The notes beneath the pieces are model-generated. The model ran no database searches and was not told where the DNA came from. It saw only the letters and a list, made by a program, of their open reading frames with translations. A stretch of DNA of 64,000 nucleotides from Achromobacter sp. Marseille-Q4962 (lineage in GTDB: Bacteria; Pseudomonadota; Gammaproteobacteria; Burkholderiales; Burkholderiaceae_B). Location: the NCBI RefSeq assembly GCF_943737005.1, contig NZ_CALSFU010000005.1, positions 62,001 to 126,000 on the forward strand. Reading direction: 5' to 3'. A program made the position numbers and the translations under genes. Position 1 is the stretch's first letter; the number at the start of each line of letters is the position of its first letter. Positions 26,577 to 30,708 of this stretch are shown here, piece after piece.

Positions 26577-28100
<1,524 letters not shown>

Positions 28101-28321: not shown

Positions 28322-28482
28322 GACCGCGATTCTAGAACAGTTTCTTCCCTCCGGCGGCCCGGCGCAGCGGGGTCTTCCTGGCGTTTGGTCAACGATTGTC
28401 ATGCTTTGGCATATTTGCGAGAAAATCCCGGGACGCATCATCGCTATGATCCTGCCTTCCCGAAAAAAGAAGAAGGCTCACA

Positions 28483-30708
28483 ATGGAAATCCTGCGTTTG
28501 GCGCTCCTGCTGGCGGTCCTGGGATGGTCGGCCATCAGTGTCGTGACTTATCTTTCGCGACGCAGCGGCAACAAGGGTGCGCTGCGCACGCTGCAGCAGC
28601 AAGCCAGCCCGTTGCGCCGGCTGACGGCGGAGGAAGCGGCGCTGGTCGAACCCTTCCTGGTCGATCCGCAGAAGCCGCGCAAGCGCCACCCGCTGCGCGA
28701 CGACGGCGTCTACCGCCTGGCGGGCGAATTCATCCGCCACGGGCTGCAGACTGCGCAGGGCGGCACCGCCATGCACGACACGCTGGGCGGCATCGACGTG
28801 GTGCTGCCCTACGATGCGCGCGATTTCCTGGCCGAGAACAATCGGGCCGAGGTGGCGCTTACCGACAGGTTCGCCATCGTGGTGGCCCTCAATGACGGAT
28901 TCACGCTGGCGCAAGGGCGCGAGCGCGAGCAGCGCCGCAGGAGGCAGAGCGACCAATGGCAGTCGGGCCGGACGGGCGCGATGCAGAACGTGAGCGATCC
29001 CGAGGACCTGCTGGCCGATTCGCCTCCCGGCGAACCTGCCGCGCAGGCGGCGCGCGAGCTGGAGGACGCGATGCGCGTGGAAATCCTGGGCCAGCGCGAC
29101 GAGACGCCGGCCGAGGTGGCGGCGCGCAGCGGGCCGGGGGCGGGCATCTGGCCGGCGCTCCTGTGGGCGCTGGCGTTCGGCGCGCTGGCCTTCGCCATCG
29201 GCCAGGACTCACCCGCCTGGATGGCCGGCGGCGCGGCGCCGGCCGCGGCCGCGCTGTGGGTCGCGTGGCGCCGCCGCCGGCTGCCCGAGCCGGGCAAGGT
29301 GAACCGCGTGCGGGGCGAACTGCACGCCGTGGTGCTCACCGACACGCGCAATACCGAAACCGTGCGCGCCCAGCTCTTTGTGGGCGACAAGCTGCCGGTG
29401 TCGCTGCCCGCGCACTGGCAGGACAGCCTGAAGCTGCCGGACGACCTGCGCGTGGACATGGACCTGCGCGTTTCCGACTACGGCGTGCTGCGGCTGGGCA
29501 GGACGCATTCAGTGGATGAAGACATCCGGCGGCATCCGCCCGTGTACTGGGGCCGGCATTTGACGCTGGCGCTCACGGGCCTGGCCGCGCTGGTCCTGCT
29601 GTGGCTGGCGCTCGGCAATCCGCGGTCCGAGTTCCTGCTGGCCGGCGCCTGGCTGCGCGGCGCGGAGCCGCGCGCATACGACTCGCCCGAGGGCCTGATG
29701 CGCGACCTGCCCGCCGTGGGCGCGCCGGTGGCGCTGTCGGGCGAGGGGCGCTGCGACCCCGCGGCCGGTTCGGAAGGCGGTTTCTGGCCGGCGGATTGCC
29801 GGCGACTGCGCTGGGGCGGGCAGCCCGTGCAGGCGCCGCGGCCGGAGCTGGACGAATCCGTGCTCGCCGTTTACTCGGGAGCGTTCCTGCGCACGCGGGC
29901 CAACCCCGTCATGGACGCCCTGGTGCGCATGGCGGCGGGCCGGGCGGGCGGCGCGTCGCCGTATCCGTATCCCTATGGCGGCCGGCGCGCCGTGTCGGTG
30001 GAGACGGTGGCCGGGCTGAGCGAGGGAGTGCTCGCCGTGGAACAGGCCTGCGCCGCGGCGGGCGGCAGCGATCACGGGCTGTGCGCGAGCCTGAAGGGCA
30101 CGATGGCCGAGCAGCTCGTCTTCGACGGACCCGAGCCGGAAGACTGGGGCGCGTTGCTGGACCTGGCGCGCAAAGGCGAGCTCAAGGGGCGGCGCGATAC
30201 CGCCCTGGTCAATTCGCGCGCCGCCGAGGAGCTGCGCCGCCTGGGCCGCGAGAGCATGGGCGAACAGGTGCGGCTGGCCGTCGACAAGGCCGCCGGCGAG
30301 GCCGCGCGGATGCGGCGCGGCGGCGTGGCGCTGCGGGTGGCGCCCGGGCCCCATGCTTCGCTGCCGCAAGCGCCCGAGGCGGCCGGCGGCGACCTGCTGG
30401 CGCGCTGGCGCGCCCAGGCGCTCATGCTTTCGGCGGAGGGCGGGGCGCCGTTCCGCATCGAAGGCATCGTCATCGCCTCGGGCCGGGACGAGGCGGGTTC
30501 GCCCCTGCTGGCGATCGATGCTTCCCTGGGATTGTCCGATCCGTGGCGCGCGCTGGCGACGGCATTGGCATGGACGCTGGCCGCGCTGCTGGTGCTGGCG
30601 CATGCGCCGCTTTGGCTGCTGCGGCTGCGCGCCGCGCGCGCCCGCGAGCGCGCCCTGGCGCAGGACGTCGCGCAGCGCGCCGCCGCGGCCGGGCCGGCCT
30701 TTTTCTAG
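28483..30708 (+). CDS. IgaA/YrfF/UmoB-like membrane regulator
   Basis: A 741-residue inner-membrane protein whose layout matches IgaA: one N-terminal helix (about 4-24), a cytoplasmic domain (about 25-220), two helices (about 222-241 and 246-265), a second cytoplasmic domain (about 266-355), a fourth helix (359-379), a large periplasmic domain (380-685) and a C-terminal helix (690-712). From memory of IgaA I can align [63 protein letters not shown] and the end. Four periplasmic cysteines (C424, C439, C523, C534) fall where IgaA has its two pairs. IgaA restrains the Rcs phosphorelay, but no rcs gene is in the window. It is divergent from the Trm112-like gene, and its TAG overlaps the stop of the convergent lpxK. 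Confidence 0.68.

Follow-up and report, generated by a model that had tools for sequence, protein, structure and literature searches.

An IgaA homologue in Achromobacter

IgaA is the essential gatekeeper of the Rcs system and, by our literature search, has been studied in enteric bacteria only. Apart from a distant homologue in Pseudomonas protegens, put in print in 2015 (PMC4661788, consulted parts), that search returned no study of an IgaA from outside Enterobacterales. Here we analyse an igaA homologue of Achromobacter sp. Marseille-Q4962, which lies in a 64,000-nucleotide stretch of contig NZ_CALSFU010000005.1 (positions 62,001 to 126,000; hereafter the window). Its open reading frame occupies exactly positions 28483-30708 of the plus strand, starts with ATG, encodes 741 residues and has a coding-type GC content by codon position (0.78/0.54/0.89).

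The family model PF07095 matched the window protein with 87.2 bits, above the family cut-off of 25. An NCBIfam scan gave no match and is uninformative here, because Escherichia coli IgaA was unmatched as well. Identity to E. coli IgaA is 24% overall, with aligned islands that include PAHWQ and ADCRRLRW, and the window cysteines C424, C439, C523 and C534 align with E. coli C404, C425, C498 and C504. A preliminary description of the locus, made from its sequence, had proposed such islands, this cysteine arrangement and a five-helix IgaA topology, and all three were borne out.

In the AlphaFold model (predicted local distance difference test, pLDDT, 88.4), the protein has five membrane helices (residues 2-40, 222-241, 244-262, 357-377 and 688-735), two cytoplasmic domains and one large periplasmic domain, with the membrane orientation borrowed from IgaA. 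The fold matches the solved IgaA structures 9biz/9biy/9bj0 and 4uzm, and both the periplasmic fold and that of the first cytoplasmic domain (cyt1) are present. A profile search of the Protein Data Bank with an alignment free of E. coli IgaA also found matches; this independent search is the one that counts, as an earlier profile had included E. coli IgaA and was circular. A single-sequence phmmer search of the same database with the window protein gave no match. By sequence, topology and fold, the window protein is a genuine IgaA homologue.

Table 1. Features of the igaA locus, in window coordinates.
Feature	Positions	Strand	Basis
IgaA-family inner-membrane protein, 741 aa	28483..30708	+	Open reading frame, PF07095, AlphaFold model, fold matches
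First cytoplasmic domain (cyt1), residues ~25-219, with R85 (= E. coli R97) and R205 (= E. coli R188)	28555..29139	+	
Second cytoplasmic domain, residues ~263-358, with PAHWQ island	29269..29556	+	Model topology, alignment
Periplasmic domain, residues ~381-688, with cysteines 424, 439, 523 and 534	29623..30546	+	
Possible promoter or regulatory region, two conserved upstream patches	28385..28456	+	Alignment of 20 of 21 Achromobacter upstream stretches
Trm112-like gene, divergent from igaA	28139..28321	-	PF03966, 69.3 bits
kdsB-type cytidylyltransferase gene	27326..28090	-	PF02348, 190.9 bits
lpxK, convergent with igaA	30705..31751 (upper bound is the Pfam match start; frame open to 32258)	-	PF02606, 331.4 bits

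Conservation against the published IgaA mechanism

The consulted parts of the enteric literature assign separate tasks to the domains of IgaA. In E. coli, Rcs is repressed mostly through cyt1, and the periplasmic domain receives RcsF (PMC5978795); IgaA also touches RcsD, and repression depends on their periplasmic contact as well (PMC7418988; PMC13317618). Residues R97 and A94 of cyt1 lie near the PAS-like switch of RcsD, and further RcsD-contacting stretches are found at residues 506-513 and 536-540, where some positions are shared with RcsF (PMC13317618). R188 and the C404-C425 disulfide are important for function (PMC5744062).

We asked how these residues fare in alignment A3, which comprises 46 sequences: the window protein and 45 of 63 other homologues (18 were excluded, several of them partial). 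The four cysteines are invariant (46/46), and 14 of the 15 genus sequences of a second alignment, A1, keep all four. The fifteenth, an Achromobacter copy outside A3 (L013, genome G032), lacks the C498 equivalent and keeps C504. Within cyt1, R188 is invariant (46/46), R97 is present in 43 sequences and A94 in 21. By contrast, the 17 residues that contact RcsF or RcsD, placed by shifting Klebsiella numbers by one, are kept in a mean of 8.3% of sequences, against a mean of 18.3% for the periplasmic domain, a borderline difference (permutation p 0.052). A low-confidence insertion (approximately residues 485-508, pLDDT below 50) adjoins the RcsF-contact helix. Thus, the alignments suggest conservation of the core and of the cytoplasmic output surface, but for the most part not of the surface facing RcsF and RcsD. 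Set beside IgaA/YrfF/UmoB of Enterobacterales (PF07095), the window protein shares full-length homology, five helices, the cyt1 and periplasmic folds, the four cysteines, R97 and R188, yet it is distant in sequence, sits on a separate long branch and does not keep most contact residues.

Searches for RcsF, RcsD and other partners

Enterobacterales IgaA works with RcsF and RcsD, whereas the genome that holds the window has no RcsF and no recognisable RcsD. The RcsF profile (PF16358) found nothing at E<=0.01 in this genome or in any of 30 igaA-positive genomes (21 Achromobacter and nine from outside the genus), and the RcsD ABL domain (PF16359) was not found in the window's genome; E. coli controls were positive for both. 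With the full RcsD model NF007907, a set of 16 igaA-positive and eight igaA-negative Achromobacter genomes plus six distant igaA-positive ones (22 igaA-positive in all) gave 0/30 above the cut-off score of 634, with a top score of 141; all genomes had generic kinase matches, and one of 14 controls exceeded the cut-off. Among the RcsD-model matches listed (one of ten for the window's genome), none starts before model position 270, leaving the periplasmic part of RcsD uncovered.

Nor did the surroundings of igaA name a partner. In line with the preliminary description, tblastn of E. coli RcsD, RcsC and RcsB against the 64-kb window gave no match at E<=1e-3, and a comparison of E. coli RcsB, RcsC and RcsD with 20 loci (flanks of at most 10 kb) and the window yielded one generic kinase match. 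Two histidine phosphotransfer (Hpt) domains were recognised in the window's genome, and both were rejected as routes to a partner: one belongs to a BvgS-like kinase in an apparent fimbrial cluster, and the other lies at a contig end by motility genes and is probably part of CheA. The best RcsD-model match in the genome (92.6 bits) is a BvgS-like kinase. Locus L093 (G000:C2) encodes a BvgS-like kinase that combines solute-binding-type domains with an Hpt domain; a regulator closest to EvgA/FimZ and genes that look fimbrial by eye lie near it.

A proposed brake on another phosphorelay

Because the core and output surface appear to be kept and the RcsF/RcsD face mostly not, the most economical reading is that the brake acts on some other kinase and answers to some other trigger. 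We therefore think it somewhat probable that the window protein restrains another kinase phosphorelay in the manner of IgaA, with a trigger other than RcsF and no recognisable RcsD as its target. Achromobacter IgaA would hold an envelope-sensing histidine-kinase phosphorelay in check; cyt1, an OB-like domain, would be its output part, and the protein would let go once its disulfide-braced periplasmic domain is engaged. We infer kinase inhibition, the direction of the effect and relief through the periplasmic domain by analogy with enteric IgaA.

Several observations weigh against this proposal. The partner searches named no partner, and a brake role is assigned through homology with enteric IgaA. 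Cyt1 has 22 strongly kept residues, R97 and R188 among them, and these two may owe their conservation to a structural role. The outcome of the contact-residue test is borderline and depends on the one-position Klebsiella shift; confidence in the alignment is low near window residues 485-508, I476 and N536 fall at different places in two alignments, and R540 may have a shifted counterpart in window R579, which is nearly invariant in 11 genus sequences (alignment A2) and an arginine in 19 of 46 sequences of A3. Since the periplasmic IgaA-RcsD contact is needed in E. coli, as the consulted parts of PMC7418988 and PMC13317618 report, loss of contact residues could mean lost function rather than a new partner. 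Finally, an RcsD that had diverged very far could have escaped the search.

By keeping the brake core without RcsF or RcsD, such a branch separates the parts intrinsic to IgaA, namely cyt1 and the disulfide-braced periplasmic domain, from those that serve Rcs. It is a natural setting for finding the roles that IgaA had before Rcs or has alongside it, and in Achromobacter IgaA may control an uncharted envelope response.

An RcsB-like regulator elsewhere in the genome

The preliminary description called the host a betaproteobacterium without rcs genes. No complete rcs system was found in the genome, which lacks RcsF and a recognisable RcsD as described, but the phrase is too strong because an RcsB-like response regulator, P0070, is encoded at G000:C27:25119-25769 (L063:9620-10270). 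P0070 scored 179 bits on the RcsB model, short of the cut-off of 235 and 81 bits above the next-best model (98), and shares 41% identity with E. coli RcsB. The proposal of an Rcs-independent IgaA branch is thus half right: a branch without RcsF or recognisable RcsD is well supported, but the genome holds this RcsB-like regulator.

One alternative, then, is that Achromobacter IgaA is Rcs-related after all and restrains a phosphorelay that ends in P0070, a relative of the RcsB of the PvrSR/RcsCB fimbrial-biofilm system. The RcsB-model score of P0070, its identity to E. coli RcsB and its co-occurrence with igaA speak for it. Orthologues of P0070 (at least 67% identity) are present in 35 of 43 Achromobacter genomes, the window's own included, and are distributed as 20/21 igaA-positive against 15/22 igaA-negative genomes. 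The igaA-positive genome that misses the gene (G033) is only 57% complete, and G028, among the seven igaA-negative misses, reaches 78% completeness. With both genomes set aside, the counts become 20/20 against 15/21 (Fisher p 0.021, kinship ignored). In near-complete genomes of the genus, igaA was therefore never seen without the RcsB-like gene, which fits a functional link and is a lead, not a demonstration. Against it, the 15 igaA-negative species that retain the regulator indicate that it has no need of IgaA. The distant igaA-positive genomes split evenly: three of six (two Pseudomonas and an Acidovorax) have RcsB-like matches of 163-167 bits, and the other three have no comparable match (Uliginosibacterium, 92 bits; Variovorax, 108 bits with an in-frame stop; Chitinolyticbacter, E 5.9e-14).

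The surroundings of P0070 also speak against this alternative. In the 19.9-kb stretch L063 around the gene, tblastn of E. coli RcsC and RcsD gave no match at E<=1e-3, RcsB being the only one to match, and genome-wide the RcsD model had its best match in the BvgS-like kinase and two Hpt domains were recognised; P0070 itself stays below the RcsB cut-off. A fuller arrangement exists in genome G010, where a kinase that best matches RcsC, an EAL regulator closest to PvrR (463 bits against a cut-off of 580), an RcsC-nearest kinase with an Hpt domain and an RcsB-like regulator form a cluster; the two RcsC-best kinases score 464 and 399 bits. Genome G024 has open frames of similar sizes, judged by size alone. 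This layout resembles PvrSR/RcsCB of Pseudomonas aeruginosa PA14, which has an RcsB-named regulator outside Enterobacterales (PMC3842833, consulted parts). By contrast, the window's genome has its RcsB-like gene without kinases of this kind next to it, and the consulted parts of PMC3842833 mention no IgaA. Taken together, we consider an RcsB-ended relay unlikely, if worth pursuing, and we retain the RcsB-like regulator as the most tangible candidate output in Achromobacter.

A second alternative is a complete but highly diverged Rcs system whose RcsD and RcsF lie beneath the reach of the profiles. IgaA itself, so distant from its E. coli counterpart, evolves faster than LpxK and KdsB, and partners could have done likewise. 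We nevertheless judge such a system improbable, given 0/30 genomes with the RcsF profile, no RcsD ABL domain in the window's own genome, no listed RcsD-model match reaching before position 270 and just two Hpt domains.

Locus and distribution in the genus

Achromobacter is an opportunist of the airways. A genus-built model found igaA in 21 of 43 Achromobacter genomes, leaving 22 without it; the Pfam model found it in 17 of 37 genus genomes and in none of 24 from other families of the order. All 21 copies span the full model (the window copy from model position 3), and none contains an internal stop. The lpxK/Trm112 site is common to 20 of them, with both flanks visible. In the remaining one (G033) the contig ends there, and Trm112 and kdsB still adjoin igaA. 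Mean identity of the window IgaA to 19 of the 20 other genus copies (G033 excluded) is 49%, compared with 73% for LpxK and 82% for KdsB, and the divergence of the window copy follows the trend among the others. As the simplest history, igaA probably stood at this one chromosomal position in the ancestor of Achromobacter already, and roughly half the species would have lost it since; we infer loss rather than repeated gain. A recent arrival of the gene in the window's species was rejected because the site is the same throughout the genus.

The preliminary description placed igaA correctly between lpxK and the Trm112-kdsB genes, but the gene lies on the strand opposite to all three: it points away from Trm112-kdsB and towards lpxK, whose frame it overlaps tail to tail by 4 bp, and so stands outside its neighbours' operon. 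Upstream, two patches are conserved in the alignment of 20 of 21 Achromobacter copies (window included, G033 excluded). No sigma-70 consensus was found in them (28385-28456), and they may represent a regulator site or an unusual promoter.

These data bear on two further alternatives. The window protein might be vestigial or non-signalling, kept without its original partners, as its absence from 22 of 43 species, the lack of a visible partner and the poor retention of periplasmic contact residues would allow. Yet every one of the 21 copies is full length and stop-free, the cysteines and R188 are invariant in A3, divergence stays on the genus trend and the upstream patches are conserved, so that we regard a vestige as very unlikely. 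The suggestion that IgaA watches lipid A or lipopolysaccharide synthesis, drawn from the neighbours, was rejected as hardly probable: the lpxK/kdsB site is common across the genus, but the neighbourhood says little about such a role because igaA runs opposite to both neighbours and lpxK, Trm112 and kdsB had no match within the stretches examined at nine loci outside the genus, and 22 of 43 Achromobacter species manage without igaA.

Relatives outside the genus

The preliminary description held that IgaA is known almost only from Enterobacterales. The record says otherwise: NCBI already applies the name 'IgaA/UmoB family' to members from Achromobacter, Variovorax, Rhizobacter, Chitinolyticbacter and Alloalcanivorax, and with the P. 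protegens homologue (PMC4661788, consulted parts) the spread of the family beyond Enterobacterales is already on record. In our genome scan, igaA was found outside the genus in Pseudomonas chlororaphis, P. morbosilactucae, Uliginosibacterium, an Acidovorax metagenome-assembled genome, Variovorax and Chitinolyticbacter, and a protein homologue search further gave Rhizobacter, Alloalcanivorax, Alcanivorax and Azonexus. Across an even sample of the class, PF07095 matched five of 370 genomes, four of them over the cut-off and the window's own included; the sample is no census, as no close enteric IgaA is among its matches.

We placed 48 proteins in a midpoint-drawn tree. E. coli, E. albertii, Salmonella bongori and G252 form a long branch apart from the other rows. 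The enteric side is thin (three sequences) because the 120 of 1138 homologues listed for E. coli IgaA were close enterics, and G252 and G219 are long branches. The non-Enterobacterales 'IgaA/UmoB family' proteins fall on the same side as the window protein, and full-length members are 30-51% identical to it. A copy from Pseudomonas chlororaphis 14D6 (L037) nests within the clade to which the Achromobacter copies belong, a placement that points to transfer between genera.

We put forward a broader view as a tentative possibility: rather than being an Rcs protein in origin, IgaA may have begun as a kinase brake of the inner membrane that is portable between systems. An old, scattered branch (Achromobacter, other Betaproteobacteria, Alcanivorax-type bacteria and a few Pseudomonas) would pair it with a non-RcsD kinase and another periplasmic trigger, and Enterobacterales would have wired their own copy to RcsF and RcsD. 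A published suggestion runs the opposite way, with RcsD, IgaA and RcsF evolving onto an older RcsC-based system (PMC11709261, consulted parts).

Other observations concern individual relatives. The IgaA homologue of G252:C11 (L133), which clusters with the enterics and is itself long-branched, comes from an RcsF-less genome and could be an intermediate. The igaA gene of P. morbosilactucae (L038) is absent from the tree set. In Acidovorax (L044) and Variovorax (L045), by eye, an htpX-type protease-like gene follows igaA and a dihydroorotase-like gene lies nearby before it, a neighbourhood common to both and different from that of Achromobacter.
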